Below, piece after piece: positions 175 through 48,100 of a DNA stretch of 64,000 nucleotides. The notes under the pieces were generated by a model. That model did not search any database. It saw nothing but the letters and a program-made list of their open reading frames with translations, and had not been told where the DNA came from. The DNA is from a virus. The stretch is from IMG/VR virus record IMGVR_UViG_3300028864_000016, positions 124,001 to 188,000 of that record; one strand, written 5' to 3'. Both the position numbers and the translations under genes were made by a program. Position 1 is the stretch's first letter. Every line of letters begins with the position of its first letter.

Positions 175-666
175 TTATTTTGTTCCAGAACTTCCAAATC
201 CCTTTTCATTTCTTTCACTTTCATCTAGTTCATCTACAACAATTACTTCATCAGTTGATATATAACCTATAACCATTTGTGCTAACTTTGTTTTAGCAGG
301 GATGTCAACTTCATAATCTTCTTGATTATAGACTATGATTCCTATATCTCCTCTATAATTGGAATCTAAAGTTCCTAATTGTACTCTTAAATATGGTGAG
401 CATTCTGTATAAGTAGGTGGCATTTCAGTAGGAGGATACATAGTACCAAAACATCCACTACATCCTTTTAATGTAATCCCACTTCTAGGTCTTATAGTTG
501 CTTCTTGATTAGTTTCTAATTGTACTGATATTCCTGTAGGTATTACAATTGTTTGATTGGGTTGTATTGTCGCTTCATTTAAGGTAAATAAATCAAAACC
601 AGCATCGCCTACTTTACCTTTGCATGGAATTATTGCATTTTCATTTAATTTTTTAAATTTTATCAT
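175..666 (-). CDS. dut: dUTP diphosphatase
   Basis: Hydrolyses dUTP to dUMP and pyrophosphate, keeping uracil out of new DNA and supplying dUMP for dTTP. The five motifs of trimeric dUTPases are visible in order: GDAGFDL near the N terminus, RPRSG, the substrate-binding stretch containing DSNYRGDIG, AKTKLAQ, and the C-terminal arm RNEKGFGSSG. At about 163 residues the length is slightly above usual because of an insertion with cysteines (KGCSGCFG) after motif II. The ATG six codons into the longest frame is chosen because GAAGGAG lies about 9 bases upstream; the longer frame would begin at TTG inside that SD. It sits close to nrdD/nrdG, consistent with a nucleotide-supply cluster. Confidence 0.95.
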   Translation of the reverse strand: MIKFKKLNENAIIPCKGKVGDAGFDLFTLNEATIQPNQTIVIPTGISVQLETNQEATIRPRSGITLKGCSGCFGTMYPPTEMPPTYTECSPYLRVQLGTLDSNYRGDIGIIVYNQEDYEVDIPAKTKLAQMVIGYISTDEVIVVDELDESERNEKGFGSSGTK

Positions 667-763
667 TATATATCTCTCCTTCAAATTCTTATTATTTTAT
701 ATTTTTAATTTATTTCGTTTTAGCAACTGCACTTGTGAATAAGTGTGTCGGTCAAGTTGATAA

Positions 764-999: not shown

Positions 1000-1218
1000 T
1001 TATCTCACATCAAATTCAATCATCATTTCATGTATAATAGCTAATCTATGTGATGTACTTTCCCAATCATCAGTTATACAAAAATGATATTTGATTGCAT
1101 TTAATTGTTCTTTTATTAATTCTTTTTGTTCTTTAGACAAGTTCAAATTTTCTCTAAACTCTTTAATAGAACAACCTTTATATTTACTTTTTAATTCTTT
1201 TAACTCATCTGTATCCAA
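1000..1218 (-). CDS. hypothetical protein (72 aa)
   Basis: Starts at TTG, 7 bases after a very strong SD (AAAGGAGG). The sequence is lysine/glutamate rich and probably all-helical (DELKELKSKYKG, LSKEQKELIKEQL). It lies between dut and the channel gene and is not recognised. Confidence 0.65.
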   Translation of the reverse strand: MDTDELKELKSKYKGCSIKEFRENLNLSKEQKELIKEQLNAIKYHFCITDDWESTSHRLAIIHEMMIEFDVR

Positions 1219-1297: not shown

Positions 1298-1939
1298 CTA
1301 TTTCTTGATATAATATAGCAATAATCCACCTAATACATTAGATATTGTTACTATCACTAATGATATAATTACATTTATAATATTTAAATTCATTCCACTA
1401 CAAAATCCTAAAGTATAATAAGTCATATCTGCAATACTGTGATTAAATCCACATATTACAAACACAGTGATAAAGAATCCACTTATTAAATGATTACTAT
1501 ACATTTTGTAATTAGCTACTGCACAACATACAAGAAAATTACATACAATACCACCAATGATTAATTGTATTGGATTAAGTGCTAATTTAGTATTTACTAT
1601 TTGTTCTACATTTGGATGTAATACTTGAAATAATGCTATAGTCGTTATTACTGATCCTATTAAATTTCCAATCCAAGTTTTAGTTAATGTTTTAATATAT
1701 TCTTTAATTGATATATTACTTTTTGAAAAATATTGTTGTGTATATGTATCTGTTTTTAAACTTAATACTTGTCCAGTAAATAAATCGAATCCAAAAATCA
1801 TAACTAAACTTAAACCTAAATAGAACATAATACTTGCTATAAATGGACTATTTGTCTTTTGTAATGTTATTAAGTAAGCAAATGTACCTAATGATATAGA
1901 AACACCTGCCATTATAGAATTTTTATACTTACTTATCAT
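1298..1939 (-). CDS. formate/nitrite transporter (FNT/FocA) family channel
   Basis: A 213-residue, six-helix membrane protein of the FNT family (formate, nitrite or hydrosulfide channels). Family landmarks are visible: LFTGQ at about 53-57, GNLIGS at about 91-96, the conserved gating/protonation histidine in GFNHSIADM (His167, like FocA GFEHSIANM), and NVLGG at about 201-205. The length is a little short of bacterial FocA (about 280), mainly at the termini. The start lies inside the end of nrdG (11-base overlap), so it is translationally coupled to the class III reductase activase. Formate is the reductant of NrdD-type reductases, so formate entry is the natural guess for substrate. That is inferred from context; nitrite or another small anion is possible. 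Confidence 0.88.
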   Translation of the reverse strand: MISKYKNSIMAGVSISLGTFAYLITLQKTNSPFIASIMFYLGLSLVMIFGFDLFTGQVLSLKTDTYTQQYFSKSNISIKEYIKTLTKTWIGNLIGSVITTIALFQVLHPNVEQIVNTKLALNPIQLIIGGIVCNFLVCCAVANYKMYSNHLISGFFITVFVICGFNHSIADMTYYTLGFCSGMNLNIINVIISLVIVTISNVLGGLLLYYIKK

Positions 1940-2426
1940 ATATAACTACTTCACCTTTCTTTAATGATTTTTGAACATCAATTATTCTTTGATTATAACT
2001 ACCTCGATATTTTAATTTTAAATCTTTTTGTTCTAACTCAAATTGACCATCTACTAGAACATCTATATATTTTAATATTTCTAATTTATCATCTTTAATT
2101 ATCAGATTCTCAAATAAACATCCTGTCCATGTCCAAATAGTAACAGTTGTTTCCGATTTAATTCTTTTTACTAAATTTAATATCACTCTACTATCTTGAT
2201 GCATGATTTCTCCACCTAATAAATTAGCATGCTTAATTTGTTTATGTTGTAAGTATCCTATAAACTTGTCTTCTATTTGTTTAGTCCAATCATACCCATA
2301 ATTAAAATCTTGAGCAATTTCATTAAAACAACCATTGCACTTAAAATTACAACCTGAAACAAATAACGTACTTCCTATTTGAGGAGAATTAGCAACATCA
2401 AATTTTTTTATCTCTGCATATTTCAA
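1929..2426 (-). CDS. nrdG: anaerobic ribonucleoside-triphosphate reductase activating protein
   Basis: Radical-SAM activase that generates the glycyl radical on NrdD. The CxxxCxxC cluster motif is CNFKCNGC (Cys26, Cys30, Cys33), in the usual N-terminal place, followed by a Gly-rich region (NLLGGEIM) expected for SAM binding. The length of 165 residues is normal. It lies 42 bases downstream of nrdD, separated by a short hairpin, and overlaps the FNT channel start. The C-terminal KGEVVIYDK is typical of NrdG. Confidence 0.96.
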   Translation of the reverse strand: MKYAEIKKFDVANSPQIGSTLFVSGCNFKCNGCFNEIAQDFNYGYDWTKQIEDKFIGYLQHKQIKHANLLGGEIMHQDSRVILNLVKRIKSETTVTIWTWTGCLFENLIIKDDKLEILKYIDVLVDGQFELEQKDLKLKYRGSYNQRIIDVQKSLKKGEVVIYDK

Positions 2427-2445
2427 AATCTAAACCTCCTTTGAA

Positions 2446-2463
2446 GGGAGAAATACATCTCCC
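2446..2463 (-). terminator. short hairpin between nrdD and nrdG
   Basis: GGGAGA/TCTCCC form a 6-bp stem with a 6-base loop in the nrdD-nrdG gap. The downstream tract has only two T's, so it may be an attenuator or an RNA-processing/stability hairpin and not a full terminator. nrdG follows immediately with its own SD. Confidence 0.35.
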
Positions 2464-2468
2464 CAATA

Positions 2469-4589
2469 TTATAGATGAATAACTCTTTCTTTAATTTCTT
2501 GTGTACGTCCTTTTGACCATAAGTTAGTACCTATATATCCACACGTTCTTCGCATTACTTGAAGTTCTGTTTCATCATCATTACCACAATTAGGACAATA
2601 CCATTTAAAGTTTTCATCATTTTTCATTTCACCTTTATATCCACATTTATAGCAAACATCTGGTTTGGTATTTATTTCAGCGTATTGAACATTATGATAC
2701 ATGAAATTAATTATTTGCTCAATTGCTTCTATATTTTTTGTCATATCTGGAACTTCTATATAGCTTATACATCCTCCAGAACTTATTGCATGAAACTGAG
2801 ATTCAAATTTTAACTTAGCAAATGCGTCTATTTCTTCTTTTACATTTACATGATAACTATTTGTATAATATAATTTATCAGTTATATTATTAATCTCTCC
2901 AAACTTTTGTTTATCTAACCTGCAAAATCTATAAACTGTATTTTCCGCTGGACTTCCATACAATCCAAAACCTATTCCAGTTTCTTTCTTCCAATCGTCA
3001 CATGCCTTTCTCATTCTTAGCATAATTTCTCTTGCTAGTTTTTCACCTTCTTCAGTAGTATGACTTACTCCTAGCATTGCATAAACCATTTCATATAAAC
3101 CTATATATCCTAATGATATAGTTGAATAACCATTATGTAATAACTTGTCTATCTTTTCACCTTTGTCCAATCTTGCTAATGCCCCATGTTGCCATAATAT
3201 AGGTGCTACATCTGATAAAGTTCCTTCTAATAACTCATGTCTAACCATTAATGCTTCCTTACATAATTGTAATCTCTCATCAAATATTCTCCACATTAAA
3301 TCAATATCTTTATGTGCTAATATTCCTATCCTTGATAAATTTAATGAAATAACGCCTTGATTAAATCTGCCATACCATTTGTAATTGCCATTTTCATCTT
3401 TCCATGGACTTAAATGCGATCTACAACCCATTGGTGGGAATGTATTTCCTTCATAATTTTGTCTTAATATTTTAGCTGATTGATAATCTGGAACTAATCT
3501 TTTAGCGTTACATTTTGCACAAAGCTTAGTTATATAATCATATTTACCACCTTCTAGACAATTATGAGTATCAAGTAAATAAACTAATTTAGGAAAAGCT
3601 TCACCTATTTCTTGCCCTTTATAGTTTTTCATACCTTCTAATCTTTGTTTAATCATTTCTTCACAAATCATAGCTTGTTCTTCTTCAAATTCAGAGCCTT
3701 CTTCAATTTCTAGATATATTGTAGCAAAAGGCGATTGCCCATTAGTTCCTGAGATTGTAGATAGTTGATATCTAATTGTTTGAACTCCACTTTTTAGTTC
3801 TTTTAATTTTATATCTTTTGCTAATATAATAGCAGTTTCTTCATTGAAATTCATATTTTTATAATGTTCCAATGCTTTATCATAAGCAACTCTTAAATAA
3901 GGGGCTAAATGTCTAATGGTTATGCTTTGCCCTCCATATTGACTGCTGGATACTTGTGCCATAATTTGAGTTGCTACAGTACATGCAGTTTCAAAAGATT
4001 TAGGGGTTTCAACTAATTTTTCATTGATAACTGTTCCATTAGTAAACATATCTTCTAAATTAATTAGGTCACAATTATGCATAGATTGCAATGTATAGTC
4101 CATATCATGCCAATGAATATCTCCACTTACATGAGCTTGAACTATTCTAGTTGGAATAAGTTTTCTTTTAGATAGATCCTTAGATACTTCTCCAGCTATT
4201 AAATCTCTTTGCGTTGAAACAACATATCCATTTTTATTTGAATTTTCTCTCATGACATCTTCATTTGTTGTATCTAATAATTTCAAAATACTTTCATCCG
4301 TTGTATTTATTTCTCTTTTGTATTCTTGTATAACTCTATATCCTTCATAAGATTTAGCAGTTTGAACATGTCCTAATTTAATTAATGTGTCATAAATATA
4401 ATCTTCAATCATATGTACTGTTGGAATTTTATCATCCATAGAAAATACTTTTTTACATTCATATGCTATTTTATCTGCAATAGATTCTTCTACTATTCCA
4501 CTGCCATATTTCATTGCTTTCAAAATAGCATTTCTAATCCTTTGTGTATCAAAGTCTACCTTTGTTCCGTCACGCTTTATAATTTGCAT
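2469..4589 (-). CDS. nrdD: anaerobic (class III) ribonucleoside-triphosphate reductase
   Basis: Reduces ribonucleoside triphosphates to dNTPs without oxygen. Counting from the ATG after SD GAAAGAGAG (a GTG three codons upstream is less likely): an ATP-cone at about 1-95; active-site Cys173 in MHNCDLINL; Cys389 in MGCRS and Asn410 in RFNQGV, exactly 21 residues apart as in the T4/E. coli type, in which the Asn binds formate; four zinc cysteines (646, 649, 665, 668); and the glycyl-radical loop RTCGYIG with Gly684 near the C terminus. So this is the formate-using type. With nrdG and the FNT channel downstream it forms an anaerobic dNTP module. Confidence 0.97.
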   Translation of the reverse strand: MQIIKRDGTKVDFDTQRIRNAILKAMKYGSGIVEESIADKIAYECKKVFSMDDKIPTVHMIEDYIYDTLIKLGHVQTAKSYEGYRVIQEYKREINTTDESILKLLDTTNEDVMRENSNKNGYVVSTQRDLIAGEVSKDLSKRKLIPTRIVQAHVSGDIHWHDMDYTLQSMHNCDLINLEDMFTNGTVINEKLVETPKSFETACTVATQIMAQVSSSQYGGQSITIRHLAPYLRVAYDKALEHYKNMNFNEETAIILAKDIKLKELKSGVQTIRYQLSTISGTNGQSPFATIYLEIEEGSEFEEEQAMICEEMIKQRLEGMKNYKGQEIGEAFPKLVYLLDTHNCLEGGKYDYITKLCAKCNAKRLVPDYQSAKILRQNYEGNTFPPMGCRSHLSPWKDENGNYKWYGRFNQGVISLNLSRIGILAHKDIDLMWRIFDERLQLCKEALMVRHELLEGTLSDVAPILWQHGALARLDKGEKIDKLLHNGYSTISLGYIGLYEMVYAMLGVSHTTEEGEKLAREIMLRMRKACDDWKKETGIGFGLYGSPAENTVYRFCRLDKQKFGEINNITDKLYYTNSYHVNVKEEIDAFAKLKFESQFHAISSGGCISYIEVPDMTKNIEAIEQIINFMYHNVQYAEINTKPDVCYKCGYKGEMKNDENFKWYCPNCGNDDETELQVMRRTCGYIGTNLWSKGRTQEIKERVIHL

Positions 4590-4651
4590 TAAATCCACTC
4601 TCTTTCACTTTATATATTTTGTTATATATACTATTTTCATAGTTATAATCT

Positions 4652-5941: not shown

Positions 5942-7456
5942 TTATATGACATTTTTTAAATTTTCATTATGCAATCCTTTTAATTTATTTGCTATATCAT
6001 ATTTTATATATTCTTCTGGGGTTAAGTATTCTATGTATTTGAAATGATGTCCTTTATGATAATTTCTTTCTTCTCGACAAACTCTAGATATTCCCCCATT
6101 ATTCATTATCACTCCAAAATCTTTTAAGCTTTTATTTGCACATTCAGTAGCAGATATGTATACTTGTTTTGTTTCCAAACAAATTACAGCTTTTGAATTG
6201 ATTAATTTATTGATTTCTGTAGCTTTTTTATATTTGTTAATATTAGCTTTTTCAGAGTCATAATTACACCAATTAAGCCTGTTACCCATTTTTAAGTATT
6301 TTTGTGCAGTAGAACCACTAATATTCATAGTTTTTCCTAAATCTGTAGCGAATTCAAAATTATATGTATTCCATATGTCGCAAGCTTCTTTAACTCTGTT
6401 AGAACAAGCAAATTCGTGGCATTTTAACCAATCAATAGCATTTAAATTTATTTGACTAGCTAAATTACTTTTTAATATATTATTTTTTATCCAATCTAAA
6501 TTACTTAATCTACAGTCTATAATAATATAGTTTTCTTCCTTGATATCATTTTGCAAAGCTAATTCTTTCTTAAATCTATCATTTTCTTGTTCATCTTCTA
6601 ACGTTCTACCGTTTTTCATTGTATAAAAAGATTTTTCATAATGTTGCTCTCCATTTGCTTCTATGATATATTTCTCATTATTATATTTAAAATAAAAATC
6701 ATATCTTTTAGAGTTTGACCATTTTGCCTTATATTCTGGTTTAAAAGTAAGATTTAATTGTTGCAATAAACTAAAAATAAATTTATTTGGATATGATAAT
6801 CCATCATTGCAACACCCTAATTTTTTACTATAAAAATGGTCTATTTTTCTTAATTTTTCACATCCACAATATATACATTTAAATAATATTTTTGAATGTG
6901 ACTGTGATTTGTATTTATATGCGTCTTCTTTATTAGACAACCATTGAATCATCCAAGGATCTGTTGTTGCAATATCATTTATACCTTTCATTATTGCACT
7001 ATGACCAAAACAGACAGCACAATTTTGTCCAGCTTTAAAATTACTTTCAAGCCTAATGCCAATATAGCCACATATAGGACATTTATATTCATAGGCTCTT
7101 ACATTTGTACCATTGCTAAGTTTTTGTCTTGTACACTTTATAATTTTAACTCCATTAACAGTCTCATTTAGCTTATAAAAATATTCATTAGTTCTTAATT
7201 TTAAAATATGAGAAAGTCCACATTTCTGAAAATCACCAGTTCTTATGAAATATTTTTCATCATTATAATATAGTTCTAATTGTTGTTTTTTAGAATTATA
7301 ATCAAATATAGTTATATATCCCTCTATATCATCATAAATGAATTTAACTTTATACCCTTTAGAATTCTTCCAATCTGTTACTTGCTTTTTTGAATTTGCT
7401 CCAATTCCTTGTTTGCATGGCAATTCTTCTAAAAATACTTTCCTAATAGTTATCAC
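5942..7456 (-). CDS. free-standing homing endonuclease, VSR-like with zinc ribbons and NUMOD1
   Basis: A 504-residue mosaic protein. N terminus of unknown fold; two CxxC...CxxC treble clefts (about 126-149 and 194-216) of the type seen in phage zinc-ribbon proteins; a VSR/EDxHD-type nuclease core with Asp253 (RYDFYF), Glu266 and His272 (IIEANGEQHYE); a C-terminal helical region; and a NUMOD1-like DNA-binding repeat (VICLETKQVYIS.. to ..GHHFKY). Such proteins cut specific DNA sites to spread themselves. It overlaps the next gene by 14 bases and does not interrupt an obvious reading frame. The start is uncertain: the GTG touches the SD GGAG, while an ATT lies 8 bases after it. Confidence 0.8.
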   Translation of the reverse strand: MITIRKVFLEELPCKQGIGANSKKQVTDWKNSKGYKVKFIYDDIEGYITIFDYNSKKQQLELYYNDEKYFIRTGDFQKCGLSHILKLRTNEYFYKLNETVNGVKIIKCTRQKLSNGTNVRAYEYKCPICGYIGIRLESNFKAGQNCAVCFGHSAIMKGINDIATTDPWMIQWLSNKEDAYKYKSQSHSKILFKCIYCGCEKLRKIDHFYSKKLGCCNDGLSYPNKFIFSLLQQLNLTFKPEYKAKWSNSKRYDFYFKYNNEKYIIEANGEQHYEKSFYTMKNGRTLEDEQENDRFKKELALQNDIKEENYIIIDCRLSNLDWIKNNILKSNLASQINLNAIDWLKCHEFACSNRVKEACDIWNTYNFEFATDLGKTMNISGSTAQKYLKMGNRLNWCNYDSEKANINKYKKATEINKLINSKAVICLETKQVYISATECANKSLKDFGVIMNNGGISRVCREERNYHKGHHFKYIEYLTPEEYIKYDIANKLKGLHNENLKNVI

Positions 7457-8086: not shown

Positions 8087-8965
8087 TTATATACTCATTA
8101 ATTCTGTAAATTCTATAACTTTTCCAGTTTCATTTGCTATTTCAACTATATTGGTAGCAAGTTCTTGAACTGCTGAATTTGTTTGTTCCATGCATGCACT
8201 CATTGAAACACATCCATCATTTATACCTTCTATACGAGATATTCTAAGTACATTGCTTTCTTTTAATTTTTTACTATTTTCTTTCCCCGTTTCAGTTTTT
8301 TCAAGAATAACGTTAGCCATAACTTGTAATTCTTTTATAATTTGACTTATCATTATACTAGAATCTTTAGTTTCTTGTGCGAGTTTTTTAACTTCATTTG
8401 CAACAACTCCAAATCCTTTACCTGCTTCACCTGCTCTTGCAGATTCAATATTGGCATTTAATGATAATAAATTGGTTTGATTAGCTATGTCTTTAATCAC
8501 ATCTGTTATTTTATCAATGTCTTTCATTTTAACATGTAATTCATTTGCATTATTATTGATATCAGCTATAGCATCGTGAAATATTGCCATAACTCCACTA
8601 TTGTCTTTAGCACTTTCATAAGCAAGATTAACTTCTGAAGAAATATTAACTATATTCGCTGTTACTTCTTCTACCGTTGCACTTATTTCCTCCACTGAAC
8701 CTGCTTGACCTGTTATATTATTACTAATTATAGACATCTCTTTTAATAATTTTTCATTTGATTCGGATGTTGACTTCTTATATTCTTCGAATGTTTTATC
8801 TTTTTCAATTAATGTTATATGTAGTTCTTCATTTTGTAATTCCAGTTCTTTGATTTTACTATCTTTCTTTAATTCAAGTTCTTCTAGTTTATCATTCGTT
8901 TCCTTTTCTAAAGTTATTCTTAGTTCATTTAACCCTTTTTCATTTTTAAATAATTTTTTCATCAT
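8087..8965 (-). CDS. soluble methyl-accepting chemotaxis signalling protein
   Basis: About 292 residues from the ATG after SD GAGGGAG. The N-terminal third is a charged coiled coil ([17 protein letters not shown]). The remainder is an MCP signalling domain with the highly conserved hairpin tip [20 protein letters not shown] followed by [18 protein letters not shown] at about 160-195, the region that binds CheW and CheA. There is no signal peptide, membrane helix or sensor domain, so it would act in the cytoplasm and join or disturb host chemoreceptor arrays. The adaptation-site regions look short. It lies alone behind a box-rich intergenic region. A host-captured gene used to change motility during infection is the most likely explanation. 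Confidence 0.92.
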
Positions 8966-9100
8966 ATTAATACACTCCCTCATTAATTTATTACTTGTTG
9001 GCTTTCAATACTTTGTCAACGCTAAATTGTCAGGAACTTGTATTATGTTTAGTTTTATGTCATTAATACTTTTATCACCTCTGTTTATATTAATTTATTA
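8966..9100. promoter_or_regulatory. intergenic region with boxes and a weak promoter
   Basis: This 135-base gap upstream of the chemotaxis gene has TTAATTTATT boxes at both ends. A minus-strand CTGACA, 17 bases, TATTGA pair is the best promoter candidate but is weak at -10. An alternative TTGACA nearby has no good -10 at 17 bases. Confidence 0.3.
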
Positions 9101-46957: not shown

Positions 46958-48100
46958 TTATGCTGAATATCTACTTAGATTTATACTTGCATTATAATCT
47001 CTATCTATAACACAACCACATTCCTCACAGATATAAACTCTATCAGATAGCTTTAGTTCCTTTTTTATATGACCACACCCACTACAAGTCTTTGATGATG
47101 GATACCATTTATCAGCTTCAACAAATTCAATCCCATTAAACTCGCATTTATACTGCATTTGTCTTTTAAATTCATATAAACATTGTTCTGCAATAGCTTT
47201 TGATAAATGTTTATTTTTCATCATACCTTTAATGTCAAGTGTTTCCATAACAACTCTTGATGGTTTGGTTTTCACTATCATATTTGTTGCTTGGTGTAAA
47301 TGATTATTTCTTATATTTGTTAATTTTCTATAGACTAATTTTATTTGTTTTTCCAACTTAATCATATTATTAGTCTTATTTAATTGGTAACAATTTTCAC
47401 TCTCTTTCTTAATTTTATTATTTTCATATTTTCGATTAACTTGTTTTTGTAATCTTTTTAATTTCTTTTCTGTTTTCTTAACTTTTTTAGTTTTATTAAT
47501 ATTTTTGAATGTCATTCCATTGGAGCATATTGCTAAATCTTTGATTCCAAGGTCTATTCCTATTGATAAATCTTTATTCAATCCAACCTTAGTTTCATTG
47601 TGTTCAAACCCAAATGTTAGATACCAATATTTTCCGTCAAAATAACACCTTGGATTATTATATTTGGGCAAATTGGGAATGTTATAATTAGTTTTATACT
47701 TAACTTTTCCTATTTTTTCTAAATTTACTTTGTTATCTTGAAATTTTATAGCATCATATCTAACATAAAATGATTGTTTTGAGTTTTTCTTAGTTTTAAA
47801 TTTAGGATAATTAGATAATCCTTTGAAAAAATTTTTATATGCCGTATTTAAATCTTCAAATGCTTGTGATGTGACTTGAGCACTCACTTCTTTTATCCAT
47901 TGATAATTTATATCTTTCTTTAAAACATTATTAAATTCTTTTCTGATTATAGTTTTTGATGGATTTTGTCCTTGTTTGTAAGCATCTTCCCATTTTGCTC
48001 TTCCCCAGTTATAAGTAAATCTTGCTATACCACATGATTTAAACATTAATGTTTCTTGTTCTTTTGTTGGTTTTAATCTTACTTTTATTGACTTTATCAT
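46958..48100 (-). CDS. tnpB: TnpB, RNA-guided nuclease of an IS200/IS605-type element
   Basis: 380 residues, apparently intact. N-terminal helix-turn-helix region; RuvC-like residues Asp183 (GIDLGIKDLA), Glu286 (METLDI) and Asp368 (DRDYNAS); zinc finger CSGC (339-342) and CEEC (358-361). All catalytic residues are present, so it is a nuclease and not a nuclease-dead TldR repressor. No tnpA transposase is next to it, so it is a non-autonomous or tnpB-only element. Promoter at 48125-48153, shared -35 with the divergent ribbon-helix-helix gene. Confidence 0.95.
   Translation of the reverse strand: MIKSIKVRLKPTKEQETLMFKSCGIARFTYNWGRAKWEDAYKQGQNPSKTIIRKEFNNVLKKDINYQWIKEVSAQVTSQAFEDLNTAYKNFFKGLSNYPKFKTKKNSKQSFYVRYDAIKFQDNKVNLEKIGKVKYKTNYNIPNLPKYNNPRCYFDGKYWYLTFGFEHNETKVGLNKDLSIGIDLGIKDLAICSNGMTFKNINKTKKVKKTEKKLKRLQKQVNRKYENNKIKKESENCYQLNKTNNMIKLEKQIKLVYRKLTNIRNNHLHQATNMIVKTKPSRVVMETLDIKGMMKNKHLSKAIAEQCLYEFKRQMQYKCEFNGIEFVEADKWYPSSKTCSGCGHIKKELKLSDRVYICEECGCVIDRDYNASINLSRYSA

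Follow-up and report, generated by a model that had tools for sequence, protein, structure and literature searches.

The 64,000-nucleotide stretch analysed here (the window; bases 124001-188000 of virus record IMGVR_UViG_3300028864_000016, which has 218,173 bp and 25.8% GC and belongs to a large, AT-rich phage of anaerobes) carries an operon for the anaerobic production of deoxynucleoside triphosphates (dNTPs). In it, nrdD, encoding a class III ribonucleotide reductase (RNR), and nrdG, encoding its activase, are followed by a gene for a channel protein of the formate/nitrite transporter (FNT) family. The same association recurs in many diverged phages, far above chance. We propose that the FNT protein is a formate channel, an accessory of the operon that would be translated together with NrdG and NrdD and feed NrdD its reductant, a reading to which we give a probability of about 0.6. 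That so many phages have arrived at this pairing points to viruses equipped with a supply route of their own for the formate that the enzyme consumes.

The nrdD-nrdG-FNT locus

The genes concerned are the following.

1298-1939, minus strand: FNT-family channel gene, 213 amino acids (aa), a minimal form (PF01226, 119 bits; AlphaFold2 model; Foldseek)
1929-1939, minus strand: overlap of 11 bp between the end of nrdG and the start of the FNT gene (sequence)
1929-2426, minus strand: nrdG, radical-SAM activase of NrdD, TTG start (TIGR02491, 142 bits, cut-off 126)
2469-4598, minus strand: nrdD, class III RNR of 709 aa with an ATP cone (PF13597, 599 bits; PF03477; PF01228; alignment)

All three genes are complete, and each scores above curated cut-offs. 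A first-pass annotation of this DNA had described the 11-base overlap and the position of nrdG after nrdD, and both are exact. It had also placed the module at 1298-4589. The gene content stands, and the one correction concerns the nrdD start, placed here at a GTG at 4598, with position 4589 an in-frame ATG three codons later. The NrdD start is ambiguous by these 3 codons, and its residues are numbered here from the GTG. The sequence AAAGGTGA upstream of the FNT ATG falls within nrdG, and the nrdG TTG start is preceded by AGGAGG (2435-2440), 8 nt upstream. A scan of the operon for promoters and terminators scored no better on the real sequence than on shuffled sequence. An identical arrangement, with ~100% identity to the window locus, is present in IMG/VR contig 3300030019_000053 (49 kb).

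Linkage of FNT and nrdD genes in phages

Co-location of FNT genes with nrdD or nrdG across phages had been set beforehand as a test of the functional proposal. Motif scans of IMG/VR yielded ~50 contigs with an FNT gene, each confirmed by PF01226, and NrdD was present in 29 of the 52 records tested. De-duplication of near-identical contigs on the basis of their FNT sequences gave 22 clusters holding both FNT and nrdD. In 11 of these the FNT gene was located at most 1.5 kb from nrdD or nrdG, compared to 1.1 expected by random placement (p ~2×10−11), and among contigs of at least 30 kb it was linked in 9 of 20, compared to 0.5 expected (p ~3×10−10; both p-values overstate certainty, because the clusters are not strictly independent). 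The genes overlapped or were at most 15 bp apart in 10 of the 22 clusters. We conclude that co-location of FNT with nrdDG is recurrent and above chance in phages.

Linked genes were found in the orders nrdD-nrdG-FNT, nrdD-FNT-nrdG and FNT-nrdD, and as FNT-nrdG on a fragment without nrdD. In one contig set, open reading frames (ORFs) including a dUTPase-like one separate FNT from nrdG, and at locus L103 the FNT gene is placed between nrdG and a dUTPase-like ORF. Loci L040 and L054 have sister FNTs and both show nrdD-FNT-nrdG, with NrdDs only 34% identical; a separate, nrdD-based scan gave one more case of this order (L376 in G133). Linked FNTs are mostly less than 46% identical pairwise (one pair reaches 62%), and the NrdDs of FNT-linked phages form two clades, ~30% identical. 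The linked state changes ~9 times on the FNT tree, a figure to be taken as a guide only, given the modest support and several long branches.

INPHARED gave a single credible phage FNT, that of the gut phage Phass-1, whose nrdD lies 27 kb away; when this FNT was the sole query, a scan of IMG/VR gave no match. The other INPHARED matches examined look bacterial and were set aside (MT839063, with dnaX and recR; E. coli matches, with focA-pfl; MT838410, with cellular genes), and the Enterococcus and Salmonella matches were not read in detail. In-frame TAG codons occur in the nrdD or thyX matches of Phass-1 (L004) and L112 (G033), as would be expected of phages from a clade in which TAG is recoded (code 15).

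Bacterial controls, incidence and origin

Neither nrdD nor nrdG adjoins the FNT gene at any of 80 bacterial or archaeal loci; at one of them an nrdD lies at a distance of ~9 kb on the opposite strand. A survey of 35 complete Bacillota genomes, 33 of them with nrdD, placed 0 of 42 FNT genes within 9 kb of nrdD, the shortest distances being ~9.6 and 10.8 kb. The possibility that the pair was captured as a bacterial operon was rejected, since bacterial FNTs are not beside nrdD. The linkage is thus phage-specific. Incidence was compared as well: nrdD is present in 20 of 35 FNT-bearing viral contigs of at least 30 kb and in 8 of 50 dUTPase-bearing viral contigs, a test weaker than that of adjacency because the control contigs were not matched for habitat. 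Conversely, 5 of 50 contigs with nrdD had an FNT above cut-off, as against 0 of 50 with a dUTPase.

The two phages whose NrdDs are most similar to that of the window, Clostridioides phage ES-S-0173-01 (73%) and IMG/VR 2695420662 (66%), both have nrdD-nrdG without FNT, which makes of the FNT gene an optional add-on. It was apparently gained more than once. An exact-peptide scan for a close bacterial donor of the window FNT found none, and in the FNT tree this protein is a long branch without firm position. Among cellular proteins, those nearest to the phage FNTs are short FNTs from gut Clostridia, of a stand-alone type, and they are mixed among the phage proteins in the tree. These cellular proteins (~200-220 aa; L131, L117, L129, L151, L115, L172) are a type outside the published subfamily scheme.

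NrdD and NrdG

The NrdD of the window scores 845 bits with PRK09263 and 474 bits with TIGR02487, both above cut-off. Its loop carries Cys392 and Asn413 (MGCR...GRFN), exactly 21 residues apart as in T4 and E. coli, and the HN-C motif is present (N175-C176). Gly687 is found within RTCGYIG, the glycyl-radical domain PF01228 is matched, and the zinc cysteines C649, C652, C668 and C671 are invariant in the aligned phage NrdDs. At first pass this protein had been assigned to the T4/E. coli formate type, with Cys389, Asn410, Gly684 and four zinc cysteines. Score, loop residues and HN-C motif bear the assignment out, and the residues are the same ones, shifted by the count from the GTG. NrdG has the radical-SAM CX3CX2C motif (CNFKCNGC).

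In enzymes of this type, formate supplies both electrons (PMC4493059 and works cited there). The window NrdD is a class III RNR of the formate type (NrdD1) and, judged by its family, most likely has formate as its reductant. The NrdDs readable in FNT phages, some from split genes read in part, have kept both the Cys of the loop and the Asn downstream of it. NrdD subtype was dropped as a means of telling FNT-bearing from other phages, the formate type appearing general in phages. Separately, nrdD is split or interrupted in L039, L101, L110, L094, L062 and L080; in some of these, endonuclease-like ORFs separate the pieces, and one has a very long frame (introns or inteins).

The channel protein

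The FNT protein matches PF01226 with an E-value of 2.5×10−34 (cut-off 34.6 bits) and contains the three signatures reported earlier, GFNHSIADM, LFTGQ and GNLIGS. A monomer model was made with AlphaFold2 using 30 relatives. Its predicted local distance difference test score (pLDDT) is 91, and it has the full topology of six transmembrane helices (TM), with TM2 and TM5 broken by the Omega-loop and the S-loop (TM1, 2-29; TM2a/b, 32-49/54-62; TM3, 78-106; TM4, 123-147; TM5a/b, 150-162/168-180; TM6, 187-212). Family score and topology together confirm the six-helix, FNT/FocA-family channel of the first-pass annotation. With Foldseek, the model matches the structures of HSC, FocA and NirC (query TM-scores ~0.73-0.87). 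The cytoplasmic N-terminal helix and the C-terminal tail are missing.

In FocA numbering, the protein retains F75, L79, D88, L89, F90, T91, N121, K156, N172, V175, F202, G206, H209, S210, A212 and N262, with changes of E208 to Asn and of N213 to Asp. Formate translocation by FocA needs T91, K156, N172 and H209 (PMC9380403); the equivalents here are T55 in the Omega-loop, K118, N134 and H167 in the S-loop. FocA site 167 is occupied by Gly129, an assignment that is secure because no gap interrupts the alignment between the conserved Lys156 and Asn172. The basic TM4 residue (Lys/Arg) typical of the nitrite and hydrosulfide groups (PMC5525234) is thus lacking. Other phage FNTs vary at the site: of 42, 19 have Leu and 9 have Arg or Lys, and some of these are probably of bacterial origin. 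Small as they are (~185-230 aa), the phage FNTs keep Thr91, Lys/Arg156 and His209; conservation of His209 and Ala212 is partly built in, because the motif used to find most of them spans these residues, and the other sites are independent of it.

Residues were also scored against the table of eight published FNT subfamilies (Table 4 of PMC5525234). The window FNT matches FocA-subfamily residues at 6 of 15 sites, and has Gly56, Gln57, Gly129 and Asn166 in place of Ser92, Thr/Ser93, Leu167 and Glu208. It misses the FocA equivalog cut-offs (TIGR04060, 66.7 bits for 290; PRK10805, 33 for 440). By residues it is neither YfdC nor NirC-alpha, and not a standard FocA either; it is one of a group of short FNTs that have no assigned class. 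Its neighbours are nrdG, nrdD and dut, with no linked nir or asr genes.

Proposed function and its weak points

We propose the following mechanism. The minimal FNT channel, probably a pentamer, would let formate equilibrate across the membrane of the host, either together with a proton or in the form of formic acid. The phage NrdD would oxidise one formate to CO2 per dNTP made, and could use external formate whenever the host supply falls short or has ceased, while the overlap of the genes would keep channel, activase and reductase co-expressed. We estimate that 50-100 genomes of 218 kb made de novo would consume 2.2-4.4×107 formates, that is 36-72 mM in a 1-fL cell, a demand that salvage from host DNA would lower. 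With a de novo demand of this size, a channel to outside formate is a sensible addition. More generally, reductant supply could limit phages of anaerobes, because one formate is spent per dNTP and a large-phage burst takes tens of millions of dNTPs.

The first-pass annotation had suggested that the channel serves NrdD in this way. The idea is supported in part: it survives the co-location test, NrdD is of the formate type, and the channel keeps the translocation residues of FocA and has no basic residue at site 167. Formate as the main cargo, net import and dependence of NrdD on the channel are inferred.

Several observations weigh against the proposal. Its main weakness is that an open channel could drain formate from a formate-making host. 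Since FocA-type channels import formate with protons, the channel would be most useful in hosts without pyruvate formate-lyase, and the possible drain thus gives a prediction about hosts. Next, ~90% of nrdD phages have no FNT, FNT and nrdD are far apart in half of the contigs having both, and ~15 FNT-bearing contigs of at least 30 kb show no nrdD (some being fragments or possibly bacterial). Finally, the subfamily residues fit every published group poorly, and the best match among solved structures, in sequence and fold, is the C. difficile hydrosulfide channel HSC.

A more intimate version, in which the trimmed FNT pentamer docks on the glycyl-radical NrdD (or on NrdG) and hands formate over directly, would make of it a reductant channel that phages evolved specially for RNR, and would mirror FocA on PflB/TdcE with the flux reversed. 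FocA binds these glycyl-radical enzymes (PMC5572259), and docking is conceivable because NrdD is one too. The absence of a cytoplasmic N-terminus in the phage FNT counts against it, and we consider direct hand-over possible in principle, though unlikely.

Alternative explanations

A formate channel could benefit the phage otherwise than through NrdD. Formate might be imported mainly as a one-carbon source, formate-tetrahydrofolate ligase leading to 10-formyl- and then methylene-tetrahydrofolate for thymidylate (ThyX) and purines. Three loci point this way: a thyX-like gene overlaps or directly adjoins the FNT gene in a contig where no nrdD was found (G020/L045), and thyX lies ~3-4 kb from FNT in two others (G013/L038 and G032/L057). 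Over the whole set, though, thyX is within 1.5 kb in only one of the ~16 FNT contigs with a thyX match, as against the 11 of 22 clusters for nrdD/nrdG, and in the window phage the sole candidate is a ThyX-like ORF that scores below the cut-off, ~9 kb away. ThyX as the main partner of FNT was rejected on this much weaker linkage, and the one-carbon role seems to us improbable. The flow might also be outward, with export of formate or formic acid easing acid or product stress so that fermentation by the infected host goes on. FNT genes are often linked to pfl (PMC5525234), and E. coli FocA is bidirectional, exporting formate in fermentation (PMC8914244). The phage genes are linked to a formate consumer instead, not to pfl, and export leaves the overlap with nrdG and nrdD without a reason; we rate it slightly below the one-carbon role.

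The cargo might be another small anion (hydrosulfide, nitrite or bicarbonate), the place by nrdDG reflecting anaerobic or early expression only. HSC is the closest solved structure, the bicarbonate channel LciA was also matched, and FNTs pass several anions in vitro (PMC9380403). On the other side, no nir or asr gene was seen near the phage FNTs read here, and we find such a cargo about as improbable as formate used for one-carbon metabolism. Lastly, a host FNT gene may have landed by nrdG without any functional tie, as the FNT-less nrdD-nrdG of the closest phages by NrdD would allow. The pairing recurs, however, with FNTs mostly below 46% identity and in several gene orders, the pore residues are kept, and the adjacency statistics strongly disfavour chance capture, which we regard as very improbable.

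If the channel does feed NrdD, these phages carry a biosynthetic enzyme together with the means of taking up its electron donor, a kind of auxiliary metabolism that we did not find described, and phage yield in gut and rumen would be tied to external formate. The phage FNTs, at 185-230 aa and without the usual termini, are in addition very small natural FNTs for the study of gating and selectivity.

Other features of the window and record

Downstream of the FNT gene, the nucleotide cluster continues with two ORFs.

1000-1218, minus strand: ORF of 72 aa between FNT and dut, without family match
175-684, minus strand: dut, dUTPase (TIGR00576, 115 bits, above cut-off)

Upstream of nrdD, by ~1.3 kb, lies a homing-endonuclease-like ORF of 504 aa (5942-7456, minus strand; phrog_4538, phrog_559) with relatives elsewhere in the record, and further upstream of the cluster a protein of 298 aa that has a methyl-accepting chemotaxis signalling domain (8087-8983, minus strand; PF00015, 107 bits). 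A TnpB-type IS605 OrfB gene with a Cas12f1-like TNB domain is found at 46958-48100 (minus strand). Other genes of the record encode a phage-type DNA polymerase, a RecJ-like exonuclease, a primase, a DnaB-like helicase, a PhoH-like protein and a homing endonuclease.

Comparison with known systems

The first-pass annotation had called the module a new kind of auxiliary metabolic module. The pairing with RNR and its recurrence are new, whereas a phage FNT gene as such was reported in 2020, in a cyanophage focA-nirA scaffold from oxygen-minimum-zone water, for nitrite (PMC8115048). A large FNT survey names pfl, fdh, nir and asr as operon partners of FNT genes, and mentions neither ribonucleotide reductase nor phage (PMC5525234); the full text of open papers (subscription papers and preprints being outside the scope) gave no report of an FNT-RNR module.

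The phage T4-type nrdD-nrdG pair is likewise a phage-borne, formate-type class III RNR with its activase, and we know of no channel gene in that operon. The cyanophage scaffold resembles the present module in having a phage FNT gene beside an enzyme that uses its likely substrate. It differs in serving nitrite assimilation, in having no link to RNR, and in its FNT being 86% identical to a Prochlorococcus protein, a sign of recent host capture (PMC8115048). C. difficile HSC (FNT3) is linked to asrABC, has 268 aa, and belongs to a group with Lys/Arg at FocA site 167; the window FNT has 213 aa, a Gly at this site and no asr genes nearby. In size and sequence type, the short stand-alone FNTs of gut Clostridia (for instance L131 of R. 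flavefaciens, L117, L129 and L151) are closest to the phage FNTs, but they have varied neighbours (ruvCAB, for example) and are not beside nrdD. A further parallel is E. coli focA-pflB, where an FNT gene is also linked to a glycyl-radical enzyme with formate chemistry. The window FNT is ~30% identical to E. coli FocA, without its long N-terminus and C-terminal tail, and the equivalents of T91, K156, N172 and H209 are common to both. In E. coli, formate is the product of the enzyme and leaves the cell, for the most part, through the channel, whereas the phage NrdD consumes formate.

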